A stretch of DNA of 64,000 nt, taken from Dolomedes plantarius (Eukaryota > Arthropoda > Arachnida > Araneae > Dolomedidae). Under the pieces are notes generated by a model that ran no database searches, was not told where the DNA came from, and was given only the letters and a program-made list of their open reading frames with translations. This document shows positions 2,452 through 38,800 of this stretch, in pieces. The stretch lies in contig OU015493.1 of the NCBI GenBank assembly GCA_907164885.2, forward strand, positions 58,484,802 to 58,548,801. The letters are read 5' to 3'. The position numbers and the translations under genes are program-made. Within the stretch, counting starts at the first letter, position 1. Each line of letters opens with the position of its first letter.

Positions 2452-3063
2452 GAATGAGCCAAACAGGTTATATGTCACATTGCTGTTACTGCTGGACTTC
2501 CCAGATCGAACGGTCAAGTTGAACGTCTCAACTCCGTCATCATCGCCGTACTTTCTAAACTCTCTATCGACAACCTGGAAAAATGGTATTCCCATGTTCC
2601 AGCCGTTCAACAAATCATCAACTCCACCTTCCAACGTAGTATCAATTCCAATCCATTCGAAATTCTTTTTGGGACTAAAGTGCATTCTCCCCATGACATC
2701 AAAATTGTTGATATGATCAACGAGGAAATAAAATCTACATTTCTCCAAAAACGTGATGATCTCCGTAAAGACGCCAAACGACAAATATGGAAGGTTCAAG
2801 ACGAAAATCGTCGTACTTACAATCTGAGACGCCAACAAGCTCACCCCTTCCACCTCGACGACCTTGTAGCAATCAAGCGTACTCAGTTTGGTCCTGGTCT
2901 CAAACTCAAACAAAAATTTCTTGGACCATATAAAATTACAAAAGTAAAACCAAACAACACTTAAGATGTTGTAAAGTGTGCATTCTTCGACGGACCAGTG
3001 AAAACATCAACTTGTGCAGAATATCTGAAACCTTGGTCCAACACCATTGAGCATATAACTTGA
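2452..3063 (+). pseudogene. Ty3/gypsy integrase, C-terminal part
   Basis: Integrase coding resumes after the insertion with a short segment holding the third catalytic acidic residue (LPRSNGQVERLN at about 2495-2530). The integrase C-terminal region follows (VWKVQDENRRTYNLRR... and HLDDLVAIKRTQFGPGLKLKQKFLGPY, an SH3-like fold typical of Ty3/gypsy). A TAA at about 2962 and further breaks end the reading near 3060. It belongs to the same element as 1-917. Confidence 0.8.
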
Positions 3064-3359
3064 TATTTTTATTCAAATGAACTTACTTTGTTTTTTACAA
3101 CAGACTATTGACAATTGACTCTCAAGAACTTAATTTTTTTTTTCTCACGTACATAATTTTCCATTTTTTTTCTTGTCATCACTAATATTGTTTTTCTTTT
3201 AGTTATTTCGTATTTGCTGTGTCTTTTTTTTTGCCAGTTTATTTCCAGCCAACTATGGTATTGTATCACTATTATCATTTTTTCCATTTTATATTTTGCA
3301 TTTTTACTGTTATTTTATATTTGTATTAACTGTGTTCTAATGTTTTTGATAAATTTTTG

Positions 3360-3645
3360 CTGTGTACCTTAAGGCGAGGTCGCCTGTCCGGTCATGATGG
3401 CCGAATATGGGAAATTCAATCCCATCTCCATCTCCAAACGTTACGCGGCGCTACTGTCTGTGTGACGTCAGTGCGTACGCCCGCATGATGTATTCCCGCC
3501 TTATCAGACGATCGCTGTACTCCGAGATGGGAAGACGTCCCTCTCGAGCTGTTTATTTTCATTTTCTAATATTTAACTAATAAAGGATGTTTATATCCAA
3601 TGTTGCTGTGGTCGTTCCCTCTCCACATTATTTTAATACTTTTAG
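3360..3645 (+). repeat. Probable 3' LTR of the gypsy element
   Basis: A moderately GC-rich block follows the pol end, holding a short hairpin pair (CCATCTC / GAGATGG at about 3422 and 3523) and an AATAAA signal near 3581, as in LTR R regions. The 5' LTR lies outside the window, so the boundaries cannot be proved by comparison. Confidence 0.4.
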
Positions 3646-3649
3646 CCAT

Positions 3650-5231
3650 CTTTAAGCAGAACTGAATCCATTTTCAGTTAATTTTGTTTTGTAGACTGGT
3701 GCAGCCATCTATCGACCGGGACGGGAATGAAAAGTTAAACGCAAGTTAACTTCCAATTAACTTCATTTTCTTTCAAGTTGATGGGATAATTCATAAATTT
3801 TTTTTAAAAAAGTATTTATTAATACATAGAATTGTCAAGTTTAGATGATTCAACAGAAAATTTAAAAACATGGTGTATAAAAAGTTCTTACCTTGTAATT
3901 ATTTACAGTTAAATAAAGTAATTGAAAAATAGTTATTTTCAGCCCAAATACCCCTTCTCCATTAACACAAGGACCTTATAAAAAGAGAAAATGTAAAATG
4001 CTACAAAAATTTTGAGAACATTATTTTAAATTAATCTAAAAAATATATCTGTCACCAGTATGTAAACCTGGAATAGTTATTAAAAAACTGCTTACAGAAG
4101 CAATTTACAGAAATAAGTTTAAAATTTCTCTCAACAGTTTAAGTGTTCACAATCTTGAAATCAAATCTAAAACTGAATTTTGTTTCAAATCAATAAAAAA
4201 TCTGTTACCAAAGTTCTGACAACTGTATTATTGCTCTGTTATAAAGTTTGGTTTCAGGTAACTCTGTCCAACATGATTATCAGCCTCCCAGAAATGAATA
4301 CATTTCCCATAAAACACGTTTAGTTAATTGTAATTTTGAAATCTCGAAAGTGAGTATAAATATATTAAGATACTAGTATCACCTACATTGATTCAATAAA
4401 ATACAATCTACATTAATTCAATTTTTGCTCCAAAAATTTATATATGCAGCTGGGAAAAAGTTTTTTTCAACATAAACACCCCTTTTCTGTTAACACAATT
4501 ACCTTAAAGAAGTAAAAATTAAATTTGAGAAAGGAGTTATAAAAAATATATTTTATTAATAGCTGTCATAACAAACAATATAAAATTTACCTGATCAAAA
4601 ACTTTTTTAATAGCAAGTATTACCTTTGTAAAACAAAGCAGCTATATGTTACATCAACAGTAGTGCTAAATTTTACAAAACCATTTCATTTAATAGAAGC
4701 TTTAATTTTACAAGTCATACGTGATACTAAAAAAGAAGAAGAAAAAGATAAAGAAAAATACACAGAATTCTCCAAGAAGTATAATACTGAACATCGTTCA
4801 CAAAATATATATATATGAATAAAGGTGAAAGGCACATATCTATATAACATAGTATGTCAATATCATCAATTCAAAATATGCAACAAAGGTAACATTCAAA
4901 ATACAGTATGGAGGGCATATACAACATTTAAAATTCCATGTTTTAAAGTATAATATTAATCACACACATATATTTGCATGTATATGTATGTGTATGTGAA
5001 AGAGGGCTTAAACAGTGTATTTGTGCCATGAAATACATTAAGAATGATCAAAATTTAATTAAGTCAGAAAAACAAAATATAAACAAGACAAGAATGCCTG
5101 TGTTAGGTATTTTAAAGCAACACCAACAATGTTAGCATTCAATTTTGACAGAAGAATAAGAAAATTAAGAATATAAAAATGTGTGCATTATGAAAATTAA
5201 GTATATGCATATAAAATTATGTGTAGCAAAG
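3650..5231. other. AT-rich non-coding stretch downstream of the PRXL2B-like gene, including its probable 3' UTR
   Basis: I see no coding sequence here. On the minus strand this is the 3' flank of the PRXL2B-like gene. An AATAAA on that strand at 4552-4557 is the nearest canonical poly(A) signal and would give a 3' UTR of about 680 nt. A purine-rich run (4730-4760) and an imperfect CA/TG-rich hairpin (4955-4998) are present. I searched by eye for a SECIS element (RTGA, about 11 nt, AA, then a paired GA) and found no convincing one. Confidence 0.5.
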
Positions 5232-8200
5232 CTATTTTGCTTCCTTTTGCTCCTCCACTTTCCCATTATTATCATCTGCATTGGAAGTAACTTCAATATT
5301 TAAGCTTTTTAGAACTTCAGATGGGTCAACGTGATCAGCTAAAGATTCTTGTTTGTGACTTAACAGCACTTTCTCTCCACCTGAAAATAAATTAGAAATT
5401 ATTTATCTCACTTGACTACCTGGAGAAAACTTGGGCATCACTAACTGGTTACAGAAAAAAATAAGCAATTCCTACAATAAGTACACACTACTTCATGATT
5501 TCTAACAGCTTTTCAGTGACTTAAGATCCAATTTTGGTATCTCGATATATACTGTTTTAAACATATGATTAATACCAATCTTCTTCCTTGACCTCATACT
5601 TTTGATTTTTATAGAATTCTAAAATTAAACTTTTGAATGATAAAAAAAAATCATAGGGAAAACAGAAAACTAATAAAAATAGTTCTTACACATGCTTAAG
5701 AAAGGAATAATAAGAGTTGATATGAATTTATTGATTTTGGTGCTTGATAAAAAAGGCTGTTATCGTATTTTACATTTTGAAAAAAAATTTGATTTTCCAT
5801 GACAATATATGAATGCATAAATACCTATATGTACACACACACCAAAATACAGGATGTACATATCCATTCTCTTTGAGTATGTGTGCATTATATATACATT
5901 CAGAGAATAAAGAGGAAAATTCCATTCCATTGCATACAATGGAATATTGAGACTTTCACGAATTTAAAGGACTGGATAGACACTCTAAAATTATATCTTT
6001 TCTTATTTATAGAATTTTTTTGCTCTGAACTCTGATAAAAACTGAAACCAATTTAGGTAATTATAAAGTCATAATTATACACTGAATATCAAACATGACA
6101 ATCTTAACAACATAAATGTTATTATTACAATTAGCTCTTCAGGAAAAGAAACAAAAAATCATAAATGGTGTGAATAATGGAATGTTTTGTTTGAAATGCA
6201 CAAATAGACTAATGAATGCATGATAAAAAGAAAAACAGGAGATATGAAAAACACACATATTTGTACTGAATATATTAGTGTAATGTACTTGCATAAGAAT
6301 AACCTTAGCTTGACCAAATAAATTAAATAACTTAATATTAACTATTATTTCATAAAATATAACCATTAAATTTTAATATTAGAAAACTGTTACTGTAAGT
6401 CGGGGGAAATGTCTGAAGTTACCCAGCTTTTTTAAGTTCCTCTTTATTAGCCTAATTTTTGTTTTGGGGAAGCTTAACTCTTCCTGATTGCATCCTAGTT
6501 TTTCATTTAATTAACATTCCATAGCAATTGAATTCTGATTACATTAATTTAAAAGTATTTTATAGTTTTAAAAACTATATACTACATTTAATTCTTCAAT
6601 TTGAGGGGGTCTAATTTATCAATTCTATACCATCTCAAGAATAACACACAATCACAATTATTTTTTTCTATGAAAATGTAATACAAATTCGGAAATACAA
6701 TATTTCAATTAATATAATGTTGTAACTTAAAATTTCTACTTCTAAAATAAACTGATAATACAATCAGATAAAGTTTAATTATAAGGTTAAAAATAAAAGA
6801 GAGAAATGTTGCTATATCTAAAATTGATGTCTCTTACATGTATAAATATTCATTTTTATGAGCTTAAGAACATATCCTACCAAACATAGTTACTATATTT
6901 TCTATTACAAGAATTGGCAATAGTATATATATATATATATACAGAGGCTGTTCACACATTTTTTAGACGATGTATATTGTATTCACAAAACTAAATTACA
7001 TAAAATTCTTGTGTTTTAAATGTTCTATTTGACATCCCTTATTCTGAACTATCTTTCAACACCGCAATTTCCAGGATAATAATGCCTTTTGAAGTGTCAG
7101 AAGAGGTATTCTATCCCATTCCTCCTGAACAGCTTTCCGGAGTCCTGTAAGGGTTTTGGGACGACGTTTGGATAATGCAGATTTTAAAAGTCCGAAAGCA
7201 CAAAAATCCATAGGTGATACATCGGGAGATTTAGTAGGGATATCAGTGAAGGGCATTGCCTTGATACCAGTTTTTTGTTCCATTTCTTTTAGGAAATTTA
7301 CAGTGGATTTTGATGTGTGACTGCTAGCTTTGTCCTGATGGAGTCTCACAGATTGATGGCACTGTGGGTAAAGCAATGGTATTTCATTCAGAAAAATTGG
7401 CAATAAAATAAGTTCCTGATAGTATTTGGAGTTAATCTTGACATTTTTTTCCACTCTCTCTATTTTTAACTTGCCATTATAAGAAAAACCAGCAACAATC
7501 ATGAATCCCTTAGAAAAACTTTCTTTCGATTCTTTGAACCATGTACTTTTATGATAATAATTCTCCCCTTTTATGATAATAAATGGCTCTTTTTTAGTTG
7601 CAATCATTTAAATACACCCGTGATTCATCTATTGTGACAATTGTTTTCCATTTTTCTTTGGATAAGTGTTTCTCATATAGAATTCTGCAGCGTGTCCTGC
7701 GTTCAGCGATATGATTTGGAAGAAGACGATGCACATTGCATTTTTTCGCTTTCTAAAGATTTAAATCAACGTTTATCATTTTGTTTACAGTGGACACTGA
7801 GAATTTTAATGATTTTGCAACTGTCCTTGACTAGGGGGATTTTATTTTAACATTAAACATAGTCGAAGATGTCTGTTTTTTCCTTGGATACTTGTTTGGA
7901 ATTTTTGTCCCACTTGAGGCTCCAATTTGACGTTTTTTTCCTTTCTTGTTGACGATATTACCTATCGACGGTTTAGATATCACAAAACCATGACTCTCAT
8001 ATCGTTTTTGGATATCAGAGTATGCATATTTCTCTTCGGAAAGAGCATAAATGTAGCCTTTGAACCACTGCTTTGTTAAAAACGCCATTTTGAATAAAAA
8101 CAAAACTTTCAAGCCGCAGACGATAATTTTGACTTTTAAAAACATAGTACAATTGCAATTATTTCTTTTGCAGCAAACGATTTTTTATTACCACTTACCA

Positions 8201-11200
8201 AAATCGTCTAAAAAATGTGCGAACAGCCTCTGTATATATATATATATATATATATACATATATATATCAAAACTTTATTCTAAAGCAGACTTAAAACAGA
8301 CAATAAAAAGAACTTTAAGAAAATTACATGAAAAAAATGTCCATTGTACTTGCCTTTAGCTACAACTAAAGTTCCACCCACTTGATAATAATCACCTTTC
8401 AAATCTCCACCAAGATTAGCTGCTTTTGCCTAGAACAAACAGTAGCAATAAAATAAATAATAATCTTAAAATGCTAATACAACAGCAGAATAATCAACTA
8501 ACATGACTCGTCAGTTTTTTTTTACTTTATTTAAGGTCTTAAAAAGGCATATTTCCATTATACTTGTATTGCATAATTTTTTAAAAAATTTTATTATTAA
8601 ATAACTTTTTAAATACTAACTTTAAAATTAAAGAAAAACTTAATAATAAAAAAGGAAAAAATTACATTTTTATACATTATTATGAAGTGGATTTTGGAAA
8701 TCACTGTATAACATAATAGCTTAGGCTTTTAAAAATTCCCCTCTTCAACTAAGAAAGGTACTGCTGTTTTAATTTACATAGTGGACTCACAAATTTAATT
8801 TTTCAAGCATCAGAGGAGGATAGTATACCTGTACAATTGAATAAAAATATGTCAACAATGTTTTAATAAATATTCTGTAAGAATTTTAGAAAAATAACAT
8901 TTTGATCCTTTGGAGCAACATGAAAATTTGGCAGCATCATATAGAATTAAGACAGATATTACTTACTTCAGCAACAGCATCCCTTGATGTCTTTGTAAAC
9001 AAAGCAGGAATTAAATTCAGCACTCCATACCTACACCAAATTCAGGAAACAATGAATTAATATTCCAACAACAAATAAATAAATAAATAAAAATATTAAA
9101 GCCTATATTTAAGATGTGAATCATTAAATACTAGTTTGGAAAGAAATACATAAATCTTTTCTATGTGGGCAATACTTAATATGCAATTTACATACAGCTT
9201 ACATGTTCCCATAGCAGCCATAATTTACTTTAACCTTAGCTACTCACAAGTTTATTGGGAGCTTATGCACTATACAGTCAGTTGAACAAGTGAGAAAAGT
9301 AATTTCATATGTGGAATTTTTTAGCATTTTTTACGACAATGATATACATTTTTACTACCATACCATAGTGGACAACTTAACAGATTAATGAAGAAATATG
9401 AAGTTATTTAGAAATACAAACAGCACATTAATATGAGTTAAGGAATAACTCGTGTAACTTCAATGCTATTTATAAAAAATATACCAACCCATTCTGCATA
9501 AATCTAAAATACCATATTAACTATGTTTAACCAAATTCTGTTCCTGGCCACCACAATGCTTACCATCAGTATATAAATATAAGTAATGTAACTAAACTAA
9601 AACAAGTTATGCATTATAGTGCATAATTTAATTAGCTTCAGCTATGATGCATTTTAATTTTAAAAATTCATTGAGAGTTATAGGCAATCAAAAACTATAC
9701 ACCTAATCCTTTTTTTTACACGGAGGATGCATTCCAGATTGTGCAGTGTAAAAAAAAGACAGGGTATATGATAAAATGATGGGTATGTCTAATAACTTGT
9801 TTTTGTTCATAGAATGCACATAAAAATTTTAATAAAAGTAATAAATAATTGAAAATTAAGTAAAATTATTCATTTATTTCAATATTCATATAAATTTTAT
9901 GCATTAAACATCAAGAAAATCATTCTTTAAAAAAAAATTTAAAAATTCAGTCTCTTGAAATTCAAATGAATCAAAATTTGATTTTTAATTTTAAAATAAA
10001 CACAAAATCAGGACCAAAACAAGAAAATTACAGGATTGGACGCTTTATTATTCGGATTAGCCTTCTCGGACTATTTGCATTCTTTTGTATTGCACTGGTA
10101 CTTTTGTCCAATATAATTTGTACAGTTGCTTCATAGGTTTTTGGGCAAAACTTCTGATGACTGAGGTTGGATGTCATAAATTCTGCAATAGATCATTGTG
10201 AACCTGTCTTGAATAGCTCCTTGTAAATTTCTTTGTAGCGTGCCATACAAGATTTTAGATATGATTGAAATTTCAATATTGGGATCCTTTATCAAGCAAT
10301 AAGTTTCCAATTTGCTGCAAATTTGAATGCCTTCAAGAATTACTTTAGCTGTTAAGGCCGGTAAATCTTACTCATTGCTTCTGAATCATCTTGTTCTAGC
10401 ATGATCTCTAGCAGCTCATCAGAAAAATAATCTGGCATGAAATTGGACACTTATGCCCCACTCTAGAGACATTGAAAGTAGAGTTTTCGGTGCAGGTGTT
10501 ATGAAAAAAAAAGCAAAAATTTTGAATTTTTTTTATTGTGTAAAAACAGGATTAGAATATTTTTTCCGACCATGTTATTTCAAAATTGTGTAAAAAAAAG
10601 GTCTGTTTAAAAAAAGGATTAAGTGTAATTATAAATCTCTGTCATTACAAAGTTGTTGAATATTTGAATTTTCATATTATTAGTCATATTAAGTTCCCAA
10701 AATATTAATTTAAAGGAAAAATATGCATCTCTGTATTAAATATTTGATTTTAGACACACTCTAAGTCAAGTCATTTTTTAAAAAAATTAGCTAATTAAAA
10801 TTTCAAGTGTATAAAGCATGATTAAATTTTAGCACATCTTAGTAATAGGGATAACCAATAGAATACAAGTATTACCAGTATATCCAGCAGCCTTGGTTTT
10901 GGGGTTTCTTACTATAATAGACTCCTAAGCCAGGTATAGCTGGTAAGTATGCCAGAGGAAATGAAATTCCACAAGTGGTATTAAATTTTTACTAGTGTTT
11001 GACAAACTGAAGTCAATCTAGACTACAAAGGAAATCAAGCCACCTCCATGATTTGAATTATAAAATTTAGATAGCTTAAAAATGATACAATTCTGAGGAA
11101 TTAATAGCATACCTTTTATAACTCATGTCCTTAAAGCATTTCTTTTCAACATCAATGAATAAATCTATTTAGAAAAATTTAGTTTATATTTAAGCATCAT

Positions 11201-14200
11201 AAAAATTGTCAACATATTCGAGTATAAACACTTACATAACAATTATAAACATATGTATACATATTTATTTATTTACTCCATGCAAACTTCACAAAAAATT
11301 ATAAACATATCAGTACATAAAACTACATAATATCTGGTCTGGCACACTGGAAACTAAGTATGCACAAAAATTTATAATTTTTTTTAATAGATTTATAGAA
11401 GTTATATTTTTCAATCTGTATTCACATTAATTGCTGTTCATAAACAAACAAAAATGTGCCATGTCAGCCAGCTAGACAGTAACTTTCAAAATAATTTATC
11501 CTAAATTTCTCAGACTAACAGTTGTTCGAAAATGAAGAAATAATAAAAGAAATCATCATTCCCTCTTCTTTTTTCCTACACTGAAGGAAAGGAGCACCTA
11601 AACTTAAGCTCACTTCAGGTACCAAAAGGGCTCCATCCAGCCCAGCAAATATGGATAGTATAAAAAATACAGCACTTCATTGGCCAATGATGTTAAGTTC
11701 TAAATAGCTATCTGCAGAATAGTTGACAGATTTTTAACAACAAGATTTGATTCTTTATGCTGTATAACAGATTCAGTTCCCTTATAAATATCACTGATTT
11801 TCTAAAACAGCAGATAGTTCTTAACATACTTTTGTCTCTGCAACCACCTGAAGCTTTTCTTTCTGCAGCAGCAAAATGATTTTTTAGAAGATATTTAACT
11901 GACATGTTTAATTCACAGGAATTATTTTTCATACTTTTATCCACAAAATTTTGAAGATCAAATTCAATTAGTAATTCCTATGAACAACATAATATAAACT
12001 TTAGACTTACAGATATTTATTTATTTATTTTGTGATTTCAGGTACCTCCTTTTAAGATAATTTTTATTCAAAAGATTTTCAAAGATAATAATTATTTAAA
12101 TTTAAATTGATTCAGAACTTTTGAAAAAAGATTACATAAATAAATAAATAAATTTTAGATTAAAAAGACAAGTACTTTTCTTACATCTAAACATATTTTT
12201 AGCTTTTACATTTTTCTTAACTATGCCCAGATTACTGCATAGGTATAATAGATCAAAACTGAAGGAGCCACTTAACAGAAACTTATAATTTTATTTCCAC
12301 TCACCCATATGAAGTCTCTCTCACATTAACAAATGTTTTAGATGCACACTCTCATCAAATCCTACAGCGAATTGTCCAGTTAGTAAAAGTAGAGAAAATA
12401 TTCAAAAGCTTAAAGTTACTCGTATAATATGTTCTGATAAGTTACTTAATTTTTAAAGGTAGTTATGACACCAAAAACATTAAGTGATGAGCTTAATTTA
12501 GCTTGTACTTAGGACCTCCATTTTAATTTATGTATGGAACCTGAAAGAGTTGGAAGTTAACTATCTGTAATATTAGTACCAGAACTTAAATTCAATTCTT
12601 TAATAATTAAAAATAAACTTTCAATAAGAGTTAGGACAACATTTTCAAGAAATATTTTTGAGGATTCTATGAGGCAATAAAACAAGTCTAGAATTACCTT
12701 ACCAACACATTGTATTACAATTCTTCTGTGGATTTAAAAATTATAGTTCATAAGGATTTTTAAGAAAAACAAGAAATTTGAGATACAGTAGTCAAAGAAA
12801 ACATAAGTAGAGAGCATTAATGTAAAGGATAACATGAACTAGCACAGTAAAACATTCAACTCTGAATTAAAATACCTCCATCAAAAAACTTTCCATCCAT
12901 AAATTCTTGAACACCCAACTCTTCTACTCCTACTCCAACCAGACGAACATTATGAGCATCCAATTTGGGTTTAATGCCACTCAGCTGCTTAGCAGCCAAG
13001 CGGCAGAAAGGTCATCCAAATCTACGGAAGAAGGTTATAACACAGTCCTGATTCTCCCACAAAGACTTCACAGTAACCTCCTTAATACAAAAGCAAAAAT
13101 AAAGAAAATTATTTTTTTAAACAGCATGTTATGGATAAATTATCAGAGGTATGATATTAAAAACAAATCAGAAAAAGGATATCTGAAAAAATTTACATAT
13201 TAAAATATCAAATATAGCTTTAGTAAGTAACGCTTAACAGATTTTGTAAAGGAGATTTTCAATTTATTGAATTTACACTGAAAAATTTTCTAAATTAAAG
13301 TTAAGATTAACATGTTGATATTGCCTGTTGACTGCTTTATGTAAAGAGATTTAAATAAAAGGAGTGGACAATTTATCATTAAAAAAGATATCTGAGACAC
13401 AACAGAAGTTAAACTTTTCTTTTTTCCCCCAATGGCTGGGAGCTGAGCAATACTCTTTGACCTGTAAGAAGCCAGAACTGTGACCACTTCGCCACATACA
13501 TTGCATGCCTTATCCCAGGTGTACCACTTGGGGTGGGTCCATGCTACACTTGCACCAGTCCTGTAATTTTGAACCGAGTCAAGTGACCAGACCAGAACAC
13601 TTGATCTTGCACCTCCAGAGGTAACTTGGAGGACATTGCAGCTATGACAGATTTTCCCCATGCACCAGCTGCAATTAGTATACACGTCAGAAGTTTTGTC
13701 AGCGTCAGGTATCGAACCAGCAACTTTCAAATCACTGGCTCAATGCCTTTGCTAAACAGGCCACCGTGCCCACAGAACTTAAACTTCAGACTGAAATAAA
13801 ATTAAGGGTTCAAAATAGCTTGTGTGAAAGTGACCTGATTTAATTATTCTATTTAAGGAATGGGGACGGACTAAACTAGCTTTCCTTTTCAGTAAGAAAT
13901 AAACTTTTTTGAAATACAATAATAAAACCTGTAACCTTTTTTTCATCTTTATAATTTAATTTGTAATGAGCTTTTTAGTGCTGCATAATGTACTTAGCTA
14001 AGCATTCTAGTTTTCATGAGCAAGAGAAAATATTAATAGGCATATTGAGCATTTATTAGTGTTGTCATTTTTTATCACTCAAATGTTTAAACAGACTGTT
14101 ACCTATAGTTTATATATGATTATGAATAGTTACAAACAACCAATGCTGAAATTAAGTCTTTAGAGTCCTTATTATTTTTTTTACAAACTTTATAAACTCT

Positions 14201-14442
14201 TTGATAAAAGTACAACACGGCATAAAGATTACTGTAAATATAAACTGGTGAACTTAAGGTATCGTTAATATTTTATTTTTCCTGGAGAGAAAGTTTTCCT
14301 AAAAAATGCAACACGTAAATGCATAATTAACGAAGTTTAAAACAAACATTTTAACACTTAGAAAGTAACTTTAAAAGTAACTTACCTCTCCATTTACAGC
14401 AGATTTAAGCTTATTTTCTGCAATTTTACTGGCTTCGTTCAT
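5232..14442 (-). CDS. PRXL2B: PRXL2B-like thioredoxin-fold protein (SelU family), six exons, in-frame UGA at the redox site
   Basis: The minus-strand coding exons are 14442-14386, 13080-12876, 11164-11113, 9030-8967, 8429-8354 and 5380-5232. All junctions keep phase, giving 603 nt (200 residues); human PRXL2B has 198. Diagnostic stretches are NVRLVGVGVEELGVQEF in exon 2, LFIDVEKKCFKD in exon 3, YGVLNLIPALFTK in exon 4, and GGTLVVAK joined to GGEKVLLSHKQ across exons 5-6. Family knowledge: PRXL2B is a cytosolic, thioredoxin-fold reductase of prostamide/prostaglandin H2 with a CxxC active site. Residue 42, the first position of that motif, is TGA (UPFC), discussed separately. All splice acceptors are AG, and five introns hold only decayed repeats. 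The start ATG follows no competing in-frame start in the exon. Everything else is open and conserved, so this is a living gene or a very recent null. Confidence 0.9.
6942..8232 (-). mobile_element. Tc1/mariner element, DD41D (rosa-like), in a (TA)n tract
   Basis: Terminal inverted repeats of about 30 bp start CAGAGGCTGTTC and match with one mismatch; TA dinucleotides flank both ends. The insertion sits inside a TA microsatellite (6923-6941 and 8233-8268), an ideal target for a TA-specific transposase. The element is 1291 bp, the usual mariner length, and carries a transposase remnant on the minus strand. Confidence 0.9.
7056..8145 (-). pseudogene. Decayed DD41D mariner transposase
   Basis: The N-terminal part starts near 8087 (MAFLTKQWFKGYI) and holds the helix-turn-helix region (YSDIQKRYESHG). 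After stops and frame changes in the middle, the catalytic part is readable: TIDESRVYL near 7628 supplies the first Asp, LHQDKASSH the second and SPMDF the third. The second and third aspartates are 42 positions apart (41 residues between), which places it with the DD41D, rosa-type mariners rather than the DD34D or DD37D groups. A premature stop follows shortly after the first Asp, and a frameshift lies near 7575. It cannot encode a working enzyme. Confidence 0.85.
9706..10619 (-). mobile_element. Fossil TA-flanked DNA transposon, possibly pogo/Tigger-like
   Basis: Inverted termini ATCCTTTTTTT are flanked by TA on both sides (9704-9705 and 10620-10621). The interior minus strand (about 10450-10030) has short coding-like stretches (YFSDELLEIMLEQDDSEAMSK, AEFMTSNL, YEATVQIIL) broken by stops, with an acidic composition like the tail of pogo/CENP-B-type transposases. 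It lies in intron 3 of the PRXL2B-like gene. Superfamily assignment is weak; the inverted ends and TA flanks are clear. Confidence 0.5.
13012..13014 (-). other. In-frame TGA at the redox-active position: candidate selenocysteine codon
   Basis: Exon 2 reads FFRRFG, TGA, PFC. In human PRXL2B the aligned site is the first cysteine of CVVC, and in fish SelU1 (FAM213A) it is selenocysteine in a UxxC motif. The stop therefore falls exactly on the Sec/Cys position of a family with known Sec members. A substitution (Cys TGC or TGT to TGA) is the only difference from an ordinary reading, because the frame is intact on both sides. No SECIS was confirmed by eye. The alternatives are a nonsense allele or a base-call error. 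Confidence 0.7.
13430..13772 (-). repeat. tRNA-derived SINE in intron 1 of the PRXL2B-like gene
   Basis: Read on the minus strand, the block opens with a tRNA-like head: CACGGTGGCCTGTTTAGCA, then GTTGCTGGTTCGATACCTG, which carries a near-consensus pol III B box (GGTTCGATACC). About 270 nt of tRNA-unrelated body follow. The 146-residue open reading here is fortuitous. The block is much more GC-rich than the flanking intron. Confidence 0.65.
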
Positions 14443-14696
14443 GATTTTTTTAAATAGGCGATTATTCAAGAACCTCCAAAGAGGAGAATAAGTTTTATTA
14501 ATAATGATGTACTGTAAACCAGGAAATATATCAACAACGCACTATGAGAGTAGATAATAATCACAAGACAATGTCACCTGACAAGAAAATAGTCCTTGAT
14601 GAATTTTCTTCAATGTAAGACAAGGTATCATCTGTTACTGCTCCCCCCGGCCTCTTCCGTTGTTTACAATTTGTCTGCCACGGAGTTAGAGCCTTT
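14443..14696 (-). promoter_or_regulatory. Probable promoter/5' UTR region of the PRXL2B-like gene
   Basis: This is the sequence directly upstream of the PRXL2B start codon on the minus strand. It is unoccupied by repeats up to the MITE at 14697 and contains a locally GC-rich patch (14640-14690). I see no TATA box that I would defend. The call follows from position only. Confidence 0.35.
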
Positions 14697-19636: not shown

Positions 19637-22535
19637 CACCCCCAACCAAGGGAGCGAAGCGTTAAACACACCAGGGCAACCAGCCCACGCCACGAACTCG
19701 TAGCCGAATTAATAACAGAATCATAAGAAGGGTTATCGCTAATCCTAAGAGAATTAAATAAAGCACAACGCTGCACCCGGAACTTGGAGCAGCTGAGCAA
19801 AATATGATCTGGCGTATCATTTTCATAGAACGTGTCTCACAGAGGGGAACGAGCCATATTCAACTTATGCCAAAGATGGTTGCACTGAATCGTTTTGGTA
19901 CGCCAGCGGACAACCAGAACATCAATTTGGCGATGGTAAATCCACCTACGATGCGTTTGATTCTTGAGGTTAATTGCGCCATACCGCTGACGATAAATGC
20001 TTCTATTCCATTCATCCGCCCCGGCAGCATACATGTCACTTTTGATCTTTCTTATGATGTCTTCCGGGCTAACCACATTAAGTTGGTCGGTAGTGAAAGG
20101 GCCATGTCTACACATCTCATCGGCCACCTCATTTGGATAGATGCCCCGATGACCAGGGGTCCAGACCAGCCGAATGGAATTGATGCTCTCAAGAGCATTA
20201 GTAATTTTACTATGCAGCAAAAGGATGACCGCTGGGGACTTCGAATGAGCCATATGTAACGCCGAGAGAACGGAAAGGCTGTCAGAAGCAATTAAAACAT
20301 GATCAACCTCCTGGCCACAAATATCAATAGCGAGAACGATAGCTAGAGCTTCCGCGGTAAAAATTGAATTCAAACGATGGGTTAACATGGCTTTCCCAGA
20401 ATTAGTCGAGTGGTTAAAGGCCGCTATCGCCACTTTGTGGTCGGTCTTGGAGGCGTCAGTGGCAATCAAAAAGCACTTTGGCTGGTAATTATTGACAAAC
20501 TCAGCCCATAAAGCTGAAATCACCGAGTTCGGGAGATCTTTATTTTGAAAGGGGAGACCCTGCGTAACAATCTCCACCTGATGAGAAAGAAAAGTGCGAC
20601 CAGGGTCAAGGAAAAAGCTTGAGCCCAGACAGTACGTATCCATAGTGATATTCATGGTATGCAGCAAACCAGGGATATTGGATGAGTTTCCCGAAATACA
20701 CCTATGAAGGTTACTGTAAAGCAAGGATTCGGTATGGAGTGACAGGTGTTTAATAAGAAAACATTTATTAAGGTGCTGAATACGGCACGCAATGCTGTTT
20801 TGGTGAACCTCAGCCCGAACGAAGTACAGGGATCGGCGTCCACCGGGAGAGACCAGTGGCCAGACGGAGGGCAATGGAGTATAAGGCCTCCATGGTATTA
20901 GCGTCACTCTTTGAAATCTGGGAATACAGGAAACCACAATAATCAAAAACACTGCGGATAACCGCATTGACGATTGGGATAAGAGTCCGGCTAGTGGTGC
21001 CACGAGTTTTATACACCAAACCTTTTAGCATGTTTAGCCGACGGTGAGTTTTTTCACGCAGATACTGAACCTGAGGCGCGATGGACATGGTTGACGACAG
21101 GACGCAACCTAGAATTTTGATATTTTTACTCCATGGAATAGGATGGCCAGCGATACGGCTTTCCGGGCAGGGAAATCTACCCCTTGAAAAATTTATAGCC
21201 GTGCTCTTCGATGGGGAGAGAGAAAACTTCCAATAATTACACCACTTCAGAATGTTATCAAGAGCTGTTTGCAAATCATTGCAAGTGGTAGCAGGATCAT
21301 CACCAATAGCATACACAAAAATGTCATCAACGTAAGTCAGCACAGTAACCCTGGACGGGGTCGTTTCAAAAATATCAAGCATATACATAGAGAAAAGAAA
21401 AGGGGACAGAACGCTACCCTGAGGAATTCCAGACGTAACCTTTTGAGGGGGGGAAATGTGATTGTGCCATTTCACCTTAATATTCCTATCCTGTAGCCAC
21501 TTAGAAATCCATAATAAAACATTTCCACCAACACCAACGGAAGCCAGCTTGTAAATCAACCTGTCAATCCAAACGGAATCATACGCCTTTTCAATGTCTA
21601 GGTTAACAAGGAGAATATATTTTTTGTTCAGGCGAGCTTCCTGGATATCAAGGTACAGCTTGGCCAAGACAGATTGGCTGTCCCGATTGGGGAGACAGCC
21701 ACCGAGGCCGGGAGGAAAAACATTGTGGCTAATAGACCAGCGAGTGAGACGATGGAGAATAATGCGTTCAAAAATTTTACTCCAAACCGAAGTAAGGGCA
21801 ATCGGGCGATACGAAGAAATCAGAGTACTGGGCTTCTTGGGTTTCAGAATGGGAAGAATTATGGCAGAGCGCCACTGACTTGGGACACTGGCCGTATCAA
21901 GGAGATTATTAAAAATACCACCAATCTTGCAGAGGTTATTAGGATCAATGTGCTTGATTAGCTTTGCCGAGATGCCGTCTTCCCCGGGAGTGGTGGGTCT
22001 AGTAGCCTTGATCGCAAGCTGGAGCTCCGGAGTAGAAATAGGGTTGTTAAAATCCCCCATTACATTGGTAAGAGAATACGGAAGGGGAGGGTGATGTGAA
22101 GTAGGGTAAAGGTTCTGGCCGAAAAGGATAGCTTGACAATAGGGGCAATTGATACAAACACCCCGATAAAGCAAAGTCCCCCCAGAAGCCTATAGGGTAG
22201 ATTGCTTCTTAAGAATGCGATAGATGGTCTGCATACTGTTTTGACTATTACAGAGTTTGTTCCAAAAGCTACGAATGCTGCATTTTATATGACGCCGTAA
22301 AAGACTTGAAATTTTTTTTATACTGTAACCAGTAATCACGCGAAAAAGTCCGCTTAACCAGCCGAAGATACTTCCTTTTCTGCCCCAAGATCCAAGAGCA
22401 CCTCGAGTTCCACCACTGTGGGTAGGACGTCCCAGTAATTCTTTGAGAGTGATTATTATCTGAGATAGCCTGTTTACTTGAAGACATAAGATCCGAGAAG
22501 GAAAGAGTGTTATGGCAATTCATGCTATTATTTAA
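19637..22535 (-). pseudogene. LINE ORF2, reverse transcriptase, RNase H and C-terminal part
   Basis: Reverse transcriptase motifs follow in order: SSYRPIALTSVWSKIFE, VNLDIEKAYDSVW, GIPQGSVLSPFLFS and the catalytic LTYVDDIFVYA. The RNase H domain follows: FLIATDASK, the FTAEALAI glutamate, LIASDSLSVL and VWTPGHRGI. A C-terminal Cys/His-type segment (HILLSC) comes last. I see frame breaks near 22285, 22205 (stop), 20845 and 19850, so ORF2 is non-functional. Confidence 0.85.
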
Positions 22536-23762
<1,227 letters not shown>

Positions 23763-23766
23763 TTAA

Positions 23767-24510
23767 ATCTCGGCCAGCCCTAGTCCAATTGGTCCGAAGT
23801 CGAAAGGTAGTAGTAACACACTGAGCGTAAGGGCCATAAATCTGTAAGAACATCGGACAATGATCCGAGTCAAAACTATCAGGGTGGATATAAAATTTTA
23901 CAATAGGGAATAAGTCTGGAGAAATAATAGCAAGATCGAGTACAGAAGGTGAATTGTTAGCCATGAAACGGGTAGGAATGTCCCTGTTAACAATGCAAAG
24001 ATCATTTCTAGCAACCCAGTCAAGAAACTGATTCACCGGGGCCAGGCCTTGACTGCCCCGTTTTAGTAAATTTAAATTTAGGTCCACCATGATAATAAAA
24101 GGTGGTTCAATATCATCAAGAAGAGAAACGAAAAAGCCAAGGTCAAAACTGCATCTGGGATTATAGATATTTACAATGGTGAGAGGAGTATTATTGACCC
24201 ATAATTTAACAGCAACATACTCGATGAAAGGATGTTGAATGGGGAGAGAAAGGTCGATGGAAATAACATTACGCTGGATCGCGGTGAGGACGCCACCCCC
24301 ACCGCCCCCAGGCCTATCTCTACGATACAGGACTTTCTGATTGACAGCGAAAGAAAAAGCCGGAGTAAGGAAGGTTTCTTGAGTAAGCAAAACAGGAACA
24401 GAAGCAAAAACCGGACACCGGAGCCAAGCGGCCCTGGCCCGAACACCACGAACGTTCCACGACACAACATAAAAAGAAGCCAGACCAAAAACAAAAAAGA
24501 ACACGGACAA
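23767..24510 (-). pseudogene. LINE ORF2, apurinic-type endonuclease domain
   Basis: The EEP-fold endonuclease is visible in order: YVVSWNVRGVR (metal-binding Asn), LLTQETFL (catalytic Glu), IVNIYNP, IIMVDLNLN, and SDHCPMFL (the terminal SDH motif). The reading then runs into the TTAA element at 23762. Across that insertion, removing it with one TTAA leaves ORF2 continuous in frame, so the insertion alone did not damage the frame except by its presence. Confidence 0.85.
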
Positions 24511-25829: not shown

Positions 25830-26265
25830 TTACCGCATACTCCGTCACCGGCAGCTGCAGAACCAACACCACAAACAAAACCGAGGAAAAAATCTCAAAA
25901 CCACACGAAAAGCAGCCACAAGAAGCACAACGCAACACAGGAAACAATGTACAAACGGTACACGAAGAATGTCTATCAAAAAGCAGCGAAAAAACAAGAT
26001 AGAACAACAAGAAACGCAACCGACCGCCACGTGTCACTAAGCCTCGGGCGCGTCTCAATTTATTTTCATTATGCAATGTTTTGCCCATGAAGCTACAGAA
26101 GGAGCGGAAGCTTCAATGGGGAATTTTTCGAAAAATGAACCGATTGTTGTCGCTCACCGGTAGAGGGCGCGACATGCAATCGTAGTGACTATTTTACATT
26201 GAGTTATACGGCGTGGTGGTGAAAGTTGTTTTATAAATTTTTAAATTTATTATGCGTGGAGAAAT

Positions 26266-29200
26266 ATGCCATACACGTGTTTTGCTCCGGGTTGTTCCAC
26301 TGGCTATAGATCAGTTTTAAAAAGAAATAAAGAAACTGGACAGAGAAATCCTAGTATATTTGCTGCTCCTAAGGTAAGAACATTATTATTGTTTTGTGTT
26401 AATATAAGATGTATAATAATGAGAGAAAAGTACAGCTGCTGTGTTTTAAGTGAACGCAAAGTTAAGACATCTTAAGTTCTGCTGAAAATAAGCGTGTTTT
26501 ATTTTTCAATCATCCCTATATCCCATCAAAAATAATTCATGACGTGTTCACAAAGCTCTATTGTATGTAAAAAGATGTAAATAATTACTCATACTATTGC
26601 TCTAAAGGAAATAGCTCATCAATAAAAGATGTACGATACTTACGTATATAATGAAGCATTAGTTTTTGATGGCTTTCAAATTTTTAATTACAAATTTACC
26701 TTCATTAGCGATTGTAATTCATTTGATATGTTTGTGGTATGTAACAAGTTATCAGAGAGTTAATTTTATACCAAGCATACAATTTTCATTTTATAAATAT
26801 ATATTGATTGTGTTTGTTGTTCATTTCAATTCTACTCATTCCAGGATAGTGAACTTTTGGAGAAATGGCAAAAAGCCATCCCCAGAAAAGACAAAGTTTT
26901 CAGTAATCGTGACAAGCTCTGTGAGTTGCATTTTGAAAAAGAGTGTATAGAAAGGTCATATGTGACTAAACTCACTGATGGAACAATATTTACTCTTGAG
27001 AGAGGGTCACCTCTTTTAAAAGCAGGTTCTGTACTAATATTATTCCCAAATTTACCAAAATATCTGTCTGTTAGAACATGCAAGAGAAAAGCTCCAGCTC
27101 CCCGTCATTCTTCATTTGAAAAAAACAAAAGGCCTAATATAAGTACAGATGTTGAATCTCATACAGAAGCTGAACAACAGCAAAATTATTATTCTACATT
27201 TTTGATTCATTTAGAAAATATACAAAAACCAGATTCATGGTGGACAGTAGCATCTACTCAAGAGTATCTAATATGTTCAAAATGGAATTCTAAATATTCT
27301 TGTGAGCGACGAGTCATTATTTGTCAGGATTCATCTGTAAAAGTATGTACAGAATATTATTGTTTAAAAAAGTTGAAATTGCAAAATGGTTAATGGTTAA
27401 TTTTAAAATGTTAAATGGTGTAAAATAATGTTCTAAGTATATTACTTCCACCTTAACTATTAGATATAAAAGTAATGAACAGTTGTTTCCAATTGTTGTG
27501 TTGATTAATGTAATCATAAGTACTTTTTAAACAGATTTCTTTACTTTAAGAATACATGACATAATGAATTAATGCATATTGATTTTAATCATTAAATATT
27601 GCTAATAATAGAAATTGAAGTACATTGCTTTTCGAATTTCAGATTTTTTTGGGAAATATAGAAATATCACTGGATGTTGATGTGCATGATATTGAAAGCC
27701 TGTCATTTTTACTACAGCGTGTTAATGATTTAGAAATTTGCAAAAATGCTGAATCAGTGTAAGTTTAATTTTAATCTGTTTCATTGGGTGGTAACATTTG
27801 TTCTTGAACTTTACTTATTGTTTCATTTTATTTTAGGATGTCTATTAGTTGTCTTGGGTATCTCTCTAAGAAAAATAAGCAAACACTGTGTAGTGTGTGC
27901 TGTCTATCTATGAAGAGAAAAAATGACTTGAAAAGAAAAAAAGAATTGCGGCTTGCAGCAAAGAAAAAATTTAAAATTGCGTTACGGATGAAATATATTA
28001 CACAAATGAATTCTCGTTTGAAGAAGAAAGTTAACCTTAAAGGAAAAATTTTAAATATAACATTTGAAATTTATTTTTAATTTGATGGTGTATTTATTTT
28101 TAACTATTTCTTTACATAGGTTTTGCTGTTAAGAAATGATCTCTTGAGATCTAAACGTTTATGTGCTGAAGTGAAGGAAAAGGTTTTGCAAACAGCCATT
28201 GCTCATTTGCCATCCCAACAACAAATGGCTATAAAAACATGTGTTTCAGCTGCAAAGGCAACATGTAGTGCGGCCGTGAGATACCCAAGGCAGTGGATTT
28301 ATGAGTGCCTGCTGCTGAGAATAAAAAGCAGCAAAGCATACAAACATCTAAGGGAACATAATATACTCTCTTTGCCTTCCCCGCGTACCCTTATGAATTA
28401 TATTCAGTCTGTTAAGGGGGTGTATGGGTTTCAGAAAAGTATATTCGTGTGTATGAAAAAGAAAGCTGGTGACATGGAGGTATCTGACCGCCGAGGTAAT
28501 GCTTGTGCAAAATTTAATATGATGTATCATGGCTGAAAAAATCTTTCTTAATTTCTTTATTGTGCTTCTTTTTAGGAACGCTGCTCATTGATGAGATGAA
28601 GCTGTCCCCTGCTCTTGTGTTTGATCAGAGAGAACTTTCAGTAAAGGGCTTTACTGATTTAGGAAAGTTTACTCCGGATCATCAAAAATATGAGAAGGGG
28701 GACCATGCTTTAGTGTTCATGTATCAGCCCTTTAAAGGTAAATGGGTCCAAACGCTCGCATGCTTTCTGAGCACAGGAGCTGCATCTGGAACAGTGCTCC
28801 ATCATCTGATTATAGAATGCATCATTCTGCTGGAGCATTCTGGATTTTTTGTGGATGCTGTCGTCAGTGATGGAGCAACATGGAACAGGAACATGTGGAC
28901 CCTATTTGGTATCAGTGCAGAAAATTTAAGCTGCAATCATATTTGTGATCCTGAGAGAAGATTATGGTTCATTTCTGACTTCCCGCATCTTGTTAAGAAC
29001 ATGCGTAATTTCATATCTTGTAATAAACAAATAATGGTATATTATAAATTTTCTTATATTTTGTCTACTTTAAATTTTCTGTATTTAAAAGATAAGACTT
29101 CTATATTCTGTGATTCTTTCAGACTCATGAAGGTCTTATTGATACAAGATGTTGGGAAGCGGTTATGGAAATGGATAACCCTAAGGGTTTCAATTTGAAA

Positions 29201-35085: not shown

Positions 35086-35885
35086 ATGATGCAACCTCCC
35101 GGCGACCCTTCCGCGAATCTTTCGCGCGTCTCCATTAAACCACCTCCTTTCTGGAAAACCAATCCATACATATGGTTTAGGCAAATTGAAGCGCAATTTA
35201 CCATTGCAAATATTACGGCGGACTCCACAAAATTTAACCACGCCATTGCAGCTCTGGAGTCCAGTGTTTTAGACCCAATTGCTGATTTCGTTCTAAATCC
35301 ACCTGACAAGGACCAATATGATACTCTAAAGCAGCGATTGATTGAGTTGAATACCGAAAGCCAAGAGTCGAAAATCCGTACGCTGCTAAAAGGTCTCAAA
35401 TTGGGCGACCACGTCCTTCACAACTCTTGGCGCGAATGCGCACATTAGCTGGCACGTCGATAGGCGACCCCTTGTTAAAATCTTTATGGTTCGCGAGGCT
35501 TCCAACCTCTACCCGAAGTATTCTCGCTACCTTGAGCGATGACCTCAGCACATTGGCTGCAGCTGCAGATAAAATTCACGACCTAGCACCCACCGAAATA
35601 AACATCATCGCCAGTACAAAACACACCAATCAAGATTCCGACCTTGATTCTCGCATAGATAGACTTACCCAGCAGGTGAACGAGTTATCGGCATTGGTAC
35701 GTGGTCGTAACCCACATAAAGGTGCCCACCGCCGCGAGAACAGCCGATCGAGAAGCCGCCCTCGCCAATACAAGGAAGCGGCCAACGGGCTCTGTTTCTA
35801 CCACACCAACTTTGGAGAAAGAGCCAAACGGTGTAAATCCCCATGCTCCTTCCGGCAGTCGGAAACTAATAAGGCGACCGCCTGA
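35086..35885 (+). pseudogene. Gypsy gag, one frame break
   Basis: The capsid-like region starts MMQPPGDPSANLSRV, and includes PYIWFRQIEAQFTIANI and KQRLIELNTESQESKIRTLL, as in many arthropod Ty3/gypsy gag proteins. A single-base break near 35410 moves the rest (MRTLAGTSIGDPLLKSLWFARLP onwards) to another frame. The C-terminal part holds an Arg/Ser-rich stretch and a Cys/His cluster ([18 protein letters not shown]), probably the nucleic-acid-binding end. It ends at 35885, overlapping the pol frame. Confidence 0.85.
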
Positions 35886-38800
35886 TGGCCTACAACGCGA
35901 TCGCCAGATCAATCGCATCCTCTTGGCCGATCCCTCGTCTACAATAGAATTTCTCATTGATACAGGTGCCGATTTGTCGGTAATTCCCAAATCGTTAGTA
36001 CCAAACGCATCAGGCACGTCAGACTTGGTTCTTTTGGCCGCCAACGGCTCGAACATCCCCACTTACGGAACTAAACTGCTCAAGTTAGACCTCAATCTCC
36101 GACGCTCCTTTACGTGGACGTTCGTCATCGCGGACGTTTCACAGCCTATTATAGGTGTCGACTTTCTGAAACATTTTGGCTTACTGGTCGATGCTCGCAA
36201 TAACTCCCTAATCGACAATCTAACTAAAATATCTTCGAGAGGCAAATCAACTTCAACTAATCCTAGCTCCACAAATATTTCTATTCTCTGGGAAAACTCT
36301 AGTTTCGACCAGCTTCTCAAAAATTATCCACAACTCACAAATCCATCCCACCTTCCGTCCAATCCTACATCTATTTCTGTTTTTCATCATATCGAAACTA
36401 CGGGTCCTCCTGTGTTTTCCAAACCCCGACGTCTGTCACCGGAATTATTACGGGAAGCACGTCAGGAATTCGAATTTCTGCTTTCCCAAGGCATCATTCG
36501 GCCATCGAAAAGCCCTTGGGCTAGTCCCTTGCATATGGATAGAAAATTAAACGGTGATTGGCGTCCTTGTGGCGATTACCGCAGACTCAATGCCGTAACC
36601 GTTCCGGACCGGTACCCTGTACCACACATTCAAGATTGTACGCAACTCTTGCATAATAAGTCTATTTTTCCCACCCTCGATCTGGCCAGGGCTTACCACC
36701 AGATCCCTGTCTATCCGGATGACGTGCCAAAGACCGCCGTCACCCCTCCTTTTGGCTTGTACGAATTTGTATTCACTCCTTTCGGTCTTCGAAACGCGGG
36801 ACAAACGTTTCAGCGTTTCATCCATCAAGTCCTTGTTGGCCTTGATTTCTGTGTGCCATATTTCGATGACATTCTCATCGCCTCTTCCTCCTCTGAAGAG
36901 CATAGTTCTCACCTCCAACAAGTTTTTGACCGTCTCAAACAATACAACCTTAAACTGAACCATGCCAAATGCGTCCTCGGTAAACCTTTTGTAACCTTTC
37001 TGGGCTGTAAAATTTCATCTTCCGGTATTGAACCCTTACCTGAGAAAACGCAACAAATTACTAACTTCCCAAAACCTGAGACCATTTCCCAGCTCCGCAG
37101 ATTCCTGGCCATGATAAATTTTTATAGGCGTTTCATGGTACACGCCGCGCATACTCAAGCGCCCTTGAATGAGTTCTTGAAAGATTCTCGAAGAATGATA
37201 AACGTCCTGTGCCATGGACGGACGAAGCGCTTGGTGCATTTAATAAATGCAAGGCTGATCTCTCACAGGCAGTCCCCCTCGGTTTCCACTCTCCCGGGCA
37301 GCAACTCTCTCTAATGGTTGACGCTTCCGATTCTGCCATCGGAGCGGCCCTGCATGCAAAAACCACTTTGGGACTCCAGCCTCTTTCTTTCTTCTCACGA
37401 AAGTTAACGAACGCTGAGCGGAAGTATAGTACCTATGATAGGGAATTGCTAGCTATCTACTCAGCGATTAAGCACTTTCGACACTCTCTCGAAGGTCAGT
37501 CCTTTATAGTTTTTACCGATCATAGGCCCTTAACGTATGCCTTTACTAAGAACTCCGATTCTTGCTCGCCCCGTCAGTTGAGGCACCTCGACTTCATAGC
37601 GCAGTTTACTACAGACATTCGCCATGTTCCAGGAAACAAGAATGTTGTTGCAGATACCTTGTCACGCCTGGACCACATTGCGAGTATCACCAGTTTCGAT
37701 TTCACCGAACTCGCTAAGGCCCAGTCGCATGACCAGGAAAAACAACGTCTTCTCTCTGGAGAGATGCATACGAGTTTGGTTCTTCAACCATTAAAACTTT
37801 CCAACGATCTGCAAATATTCTGCGATAGCAGTACCGGCAAAGTACGTCCTTTCGTCCCAGAGGCGTGCCGAGAACGTCTGTTCCACTCCCTGCATGGACT
37901 ATCTCACCCTGGAGTGCGAGCAACCAAGAAGCTCATTTCAGAACGTTATGTGTGGCCATCAATGGCGACATCACAGCATGGACTCGTACCTGCTTGAGCT
38001 GTCAACGCTCAAAGGTACATAAGCACACACGCAGCCCCCTGCAGCAATTTTCTCCGCCATCTCATCGCTTCGATCACGTACATCTTGATTTGGTGGGCCC
38101 TCTTCCACCTTCGGAGGGATTCACTTACTTGCTTACGTGCGTGGATCGGTATACTCGATGGCCGGAGGCGATCCCGATAACGGACATCTCGTCCGAGACA
38201 GTATCACGCGCTTTCATCAGTCAGTGGGTTGCCCGTTTTGGAATCCCTTCCGTCATCACCACCGATCAAAGACGCCAGTTTCAAGCACATCTTTTCTCTG
38301 ATCTGATGTCACTACTAGGCACGAAGCACATCCGCACCTCGCCGTACCATCCAGCGGGCAACGGGCTAGTTGAGCGTTTTCACCGCTCACTTAAACAGGC
38401 CCTTAGATGTCACTCAAACAACCGGTGGACTGAGACTCTCCCATTAGTCCTCCTAGAACTCCGCTCCTCGTTTAAGGAAGACCTCCAGTGCACAAGTGCA
38501 GAGCTTGTATATGGTTCTACTCTCCGCCTCCCTGCAGATTTTCTCCATCCATCCCCACCCCCTGCAGTCGAACCATCCGAGTTCGTCCAACATCTCCGTA
38601 GCTTAATGCAGAGTCTCTCACCAACTCCCACTTCTGCTCACCACAATCCGACCACCTTCGTGCACCCTTCTCTCGAATCGTGCTCTCATGTCTTTGTGCA
38701 CTATGATGGGATCCGGCGCTCACTACAGCATCCGTACAACGGACCCTTATGGTAATGGACAGAACGGCTAAATATTACACATTGCTTATGAATGGTAAGA

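Follow-up and report, generated by a model that had tools for sequence, protein, structure and literature searches.

The analysed window, a stretch of 64 kb of Dolomedes plantarius DNA, very probably holds on its minus strand a working spider gene for a selenocysteine (Sec)-containing PRXL2B, in which UGA codon 42 would be recoded by way of a SECIS element in the 3' UTR and Sec would act as the attacking residue of a UxxC motif. This reading follows from a frame that is kept past the TGA, from the Trp or missing site found at the same place in close spider relatives, and from a SECIS-shaped hairpin in the 3' UTR. Taken at the level of sequence, a Sec-encoding UGA is by far the best supported reading of the TGA.

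The first-pass annotation had joined six in-phase exons into a 200-codon PRXL2B homologue whose sole internal stop is a TGA, and splice-site reading together with the joined translation confirmed this structure. The joined exons run from ATG to TAG across a coding span of 9.2 kb, and all six were placed by tblastn in the window. The only internal stop of the spliced frame is the TGA at 13014-13012 (codon 42, context RRFG*PFCR); both other frames of the joined exons contain many stops. All five internal splice acceptors are AG, and the donors are GT with the exception of a GC after exon 5. The search with tblastn yielded no convincing second gene copy in the window, the remaining matches having E values of 0.16 or more. 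The features of the gene and of its 3' UTR, all on the minus strand, are as follows.

14386..14442, minus: exon 1, with the start codon ATG at 14440-14442; P0001 begins at the same Met
12876..13080, minus: exon 2, holding the redox motif RRFG-UGA-PFCR
13012..13014, minus: TGA codon 42, proposed Sec, aligned to the first Cys of human CVVC
11113..11164, minus: exon 3, from the spliced frame and tblastn
8967..9030, minus: exon 4, from the spliced frame and tblastn
8354..8429, minus: exon 5, with a GC donor, from the spliced frame and tblastn
5232..5380, minus: exon 6, coding part ending in TAG, from the spliced frame and tblastn
4626..4713, minus: SECIS candidate, form 1, with helix I, open core, helix II and an 8-nt apical loop, from the unconstrained fold
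4686..4689, minus: SECIS 5' core AUGA, from the fold and sequence reading
4671..4674, minus: SECIS apical AAAA, from the fold and sequence reading
4653..4656, minus: SECIS 3' core UGAU, from the fold and sequence reading
4552..4557, minus: AATAAA, likely polyadenylation signal, read from the sequence

The predicted protein matches PF13911 (AhpC-TSA_2 / Prx-like2 domain), scoring 72.2 bits where the cut-off is 27, and residues 8-184 align with the human enzyme in PDB entry 9us9_A (E 7.1e-50). Among the matches listed, named homologues are mostly annotated as prostamide/prostaglandin F synthase. Judged from these matches the family is PRXL2B (prostamide/PGF synthase), a Prx-like2 protein with a thioredoxin fold, and the gene itself is a spider gene. 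Alignment with 9us9_A also upheld the earlier placement of the TGA at the first redox position: it aligns with the first Cys of human RRFGCVVCR, so that spider and human proteins have the motif position in common while human PRXL2B has Cys (CVVC) where the spider gene has TGA and reads UPFC. In a second human PDB entry, 9usa, Ser replaces both Cys residues of the motif.

A first protein search gave 28 relatives, 13 of them named spider rows, and a profile search, with scoring limited to the 7995 candidates sharing most words, gave the best 120 of 275 relatives; the alignment set comprised 127 distinct proteins from both searches. A scan for relatives in viral contigs found none. At the redox site the 127 aligned homologues carry Cys in 88 cases, Trp in 22, a gap in 16 and Tyr in one. 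The five closest proteins among the matches listed (P0001-P0005), which are 76-90% identical, all have Trp at the site, and the longest contigs behind them measure 889-1580 nt, a cDNA-like size compared with the 9.2 kb over which the coding sequence extends here. Conservation spanning the UGA, which had been proposed as a check, was found in these relatives: coding sequence past the TGA matches them closely, and chance would not keep the five exons after the stop at this level of identity. The gene thus carries a UGA in frame where Cys or Sec serves as redox residue, and its coding sequence stays conserved beyond that codon, as is characteristic of selenoprotein genes.

All 22 Trp rows come from nameless contigs labelled lgn, jgi or ena, a restriction that is expected if a TGA was translated as Trp. 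The Trp is therefore likely a product of gene calling in which UGA was read as Trp, as inferred from protein rows rather than from DNA. The 13 named spider rows behave differently: the site is Cys in five (P0006, P0007, P0008, P0014 and P0017) and absent in seven (P0009-P0013, P0015 and P0016), whose models are either joined around the site or start just past it, and one further row (P0028) stops short of it. Close relatives that all carried Cys had been named beforehand as the outcome that would speak against Sec; Trp in P0001-P0005 and a missing site in seven spider models were found instead. Models from seven spider genera consequently appear to lose the active site of PRXL2B. The three Araneus ventricosus rows (P0014, P0009 and P0028) share the same longest-contig figure, 5552035, and so perhaps lie on one scaffold; a local array is possible in this species, one copy having Cys (CQFC) and another a site-less model.

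These comparisons bear on whether the true codon might be TGC, TGT or TGG, misread during sequencing or assembly. A single base in one assembly is at stake, which is what such an error would look like, but independent spider sequences behave as if TGA stood there, and the SECIS candidate would be left idle; an error of this kind is considered extremely unlikely. As a control, a selenoprotein W (SELENOW) search was used, with 98 matches made up of 68 named-source rows and 30 nameless-contig rows. By the pattern used, an intact Sec motif was absent in 63 of the 68 named rows, some of the 63 being fragments; the motif read C in four rows (U is converted to C by the tool) and G in one. Among the rows listed are models that omit the Sec codon or are spliced so as to bypass it. 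Only one of the 30 nameless rows held the motif, and it reads CGAW. This control, thin as it is, shows that both artefacts, the Trp and the lost site, occur at the proven Sec codon of SELENOW.

In the 3' UTR, where the first-pass annotation had seen no SECIS in the 0.7 kb downstream, a good candidate was found 518 nt past the stop codon (4713-4626, minus strand) and before the AATAAA, correcting that statement. The by-eye motif AUGAA-AUGGUUUUGU-AAAAUUUA-GCACUACUGU-UGAU is flanked by complementary arms, and the exon coordinates put its AUGA 1019 nt 3' of the UGA once the message is spliced. When folded freely, the 88 nt form a long helix I, an open core with AUGA and 3' GAU, and a helix II capped by an 8-nt apical loop beginning AAAA, a canonical-looking form 1 SECIS candidate. 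The fold energy was -18.2 kcal/mol (z -2.16), a value equalled by 8 of 200 shuffles; folded by itself, the 73-nt core had a z of only -0.76 and was equalled by 44 of 200.

A loose energy-only SECIS score was not discriminating, since 10 further rows, spread over 8 sites of the window, scored equal or better; the unconstrained fold was judged by its layout instead, first under strict and then under relaxed rules. Under the strict rules, whose thresholds were chosen after the candidate was known, the candidate was the sole match on both strands of the window, and the 772-nt UTR stretch gave no match in 1500 dinucleotide-shuffled versions. Relaxed rules gave two matches on both strands of the window and 24 among 6000 shuffled UTRs, of which one reached -18 kcal/mol or below and two had AUGA plus GAU. 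The second relaxed match, at 36128 on the minus strand, lies opposite a retroelement ORF (35701-37314) and was taken as chance. The check for a SECIS that had been recommended for the downstream region had a divided outcome: the unconstrained fold shows helices I and II and the layout AUGA..AA..(U)GA, and Rfam reported no SECIS at the gathering threshold in the whole window, by E-value in 3000-14500 or 4540-5240, or even at E up to 10 in the 701 nt of 4540-5240.

The hairpin also bears on whether the UGA might be read through as Cys, Trp or Arg, or only partly, with selenium not being the point. Such decoding would gain from the Trp of the database rows if these reflect real TGG or true Trp insertion, and mammals are known to insert Cys at UGA when selenium is low. 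The Trp rows are, however, limited without exception to nameless contigs, and to our knowledge Trp cannot act as the redox residue of a CxxC/UxxC motif here. Furthermore, the 3' UTR holds a SECIS candidate and Sec decoding occurs in spiders, as described in the portion of PMC5330540 cited here, leaving read-through by another amino acid quite improbable.

With Sec as the preferred reading of codon 42, a mechanism can be outlined from general knowledge of selenoproteins. SECIS elements recruit SBP2 and eEFSec to recode UGA, and in thioredoxin-fold CxxC/UxxC enzymes the first residue attacks and the second resolves. If the gene is expressed in Dolomedes plantarius, as we infer, the 3' UTR hairpin would recruit SBP2 and eEFSec with Sec-tRNA, and UGA codon 42 would then be decoded as Sec. 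Sec-42 would be the attacking residue of the UxxC motif, its selenolate reducing a peroxide or endoperoxide, after which Cys-45 would resolve the selenenyl intermediate and recycling of the enzyme may fall to thioredoxin or a comparable donor. Reduction of prostamide H2 is a possible reaction in spiders, by extension from the enzyme described in the cited part of PMC3473315.

A tree of 54 rows and 203 columns was generated from the window gene, 21 of the 22 Trp rows and 32 others picked from the 127, leaving PRXL2A and PRXL2C out. Eighteen rows, spider by name or by tree place, form a spider group with support 100/99. Within it lie a Cys group of four rows (100/99) and a 14-row UGA-type group (94/92, below the tool's star), the latter consisting of the window gene, P0001-P0005, the seven site-less models and one Cys row, P0014 from Araneus. 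The five named spider Cys rows, including P0014 within the UGA-type group, count against a Sec-encoding gene, as do the negative Rfam result, the undiscriminating energy score, the strict thresholds chosen with the candidate in view and the unremarkable fold of the 73-nt core. These Cys rows would also suit a pseudogene or recently broken copy, a decaying gene whose Cys codon mutated to TGA: a single base separates TGA from TGC and TGT, and Cys forms exist in spiders. A decaying copy is nevertheless hardly credible: the six exons carry no other lesion and their splice sites are intact, the end branch of the window gene is short (0.031), relatives show Trp at this position or lack the site, and the UTR retains a SECIS-shaped hairpin.

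Elsewhere in the tree, Cys rows form one group that includes ticks (100/100) and another of insects (100/98). The Cys-type PRXL2B of ticks (P0031, P0036, P0037 and P0043), insects (P0038 and P0051) and orb-weavers (P0006-P0008) belongs to the same enzyme family as the window gene but, unlike it, has Cys at the site and falls into separate tree groups. Placing the label C on the tree requires five changes, at least three of them by starred branches, suggesting that more than one Sec-to-Cys change is likely, with weak deep branches. Six Trp rows from jgi/ena contigs (P0020, P0023, P0035, P0041, P0045 and P0061) form a group of their own outside the spiders (100/100) and probably represent a further animal lineage that has the Sec form. 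Both spider groups contain one row from Nephila pilipes and one from Trichonephila inaurata, two species that seem to hold Sec and Cys copies and so offer a natural test of what selenium buys. On balance, we lean slightly towards a history in which spiders kept an ancestral Sec PRXL2B, ticks, insects and vertebrates went to Cys separately, and a duplication in orb-weavers gave Cys and Sec copies. If true, single animals would naturally carry paired Sec and Cys versions of the same enzyme, which would allow a direct test of why selenium is kept.

According to the portions of PMC3473315 (Jiang et al. 2012) cited here, SelU split into three families before animals, SelU3 being the prostamide/PGF synthase lineage and SelU2 being C9orf21. 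The "SelU2-type" label of the first-pass annotation is thus unsafe and PRXL2B is the safe name; the Sec assignment made with it is supported by the conserved frame, the Trp or missing site and the SECIS layout. The same portions describe eight invertebrate SelU3 proteins, three of which have Cys, all three deuterostome. The invertebrate Sec SelU3 proteins share with the spider gene the subfamily and, with codon 42 read as proposed, Sec at the first redox-motif position, and the spider SECIS candidate resembles most invertebrate ones in being AUGA-type with apical AA. In contrast, those portions name no arthropod, while the present gene is from a spider and has a related Cys group in orb-weavers. 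Sec forms of the subfamily had thus been described from other invertebrates by 2012 (PMC3473315, as cited in part), and the candidate of the first-pass annotation would add to the Sec-PRXL2B group a spider member with its SECIS candidate. All vertebrate Sec SelU belong to SelU1 in the cited part of PMC3316567 (Mariotti et al. 2012), so that the Sec SelU1 of fish and other vertebrates is of the same wider SelU family, with Sec in the redox motif, and of a subfamily other than spider PRXL2B. For the spider Parasteatoda the excerpted accounts give four copies of tRNA-Sec and 12 selenoproteins (PMC5330540), among which a Sec PRXL2B may be included, and for a centipede 20 selenoproteins (PMC4244043). 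Among the matches listed, open-access titles and abstract starts, a scope outside which most subscription journals fall, contained no Sec PRXL2B/SelU in spiders.

The remainder of the window contains mobile-element sequences, and ARAGORN found no tRNA genes in it. Intron 5 holds a transposase-like ORF of 183 aa (7607-7056, minus), and inverted ends can be made out near 8235 and 6940; Pfam gave no match to this ORF, which was judged by eye to be a mariner-like element. Retroelement ORFs encode an integrase with RNase H (52-1035, plus) and a reverse transcriptase with aspartyl protease (35701-37314, plus), and LINE-type reverse transcriptase and endonuclease ORFs lie at 20810-22174 and 23689-24510 (minus). 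An inverted pair of 1738 nt (26086-27823 and 51269-49533), 99.0% identical, has a weak THAP match below cut-off and perhaps represents two copies of a P-like DNA transposon. A long intact Mutator-like transposase ORF of 591 aa (PF20700, E 2.9e-73) occupies 40154-41929 on the plus strand.
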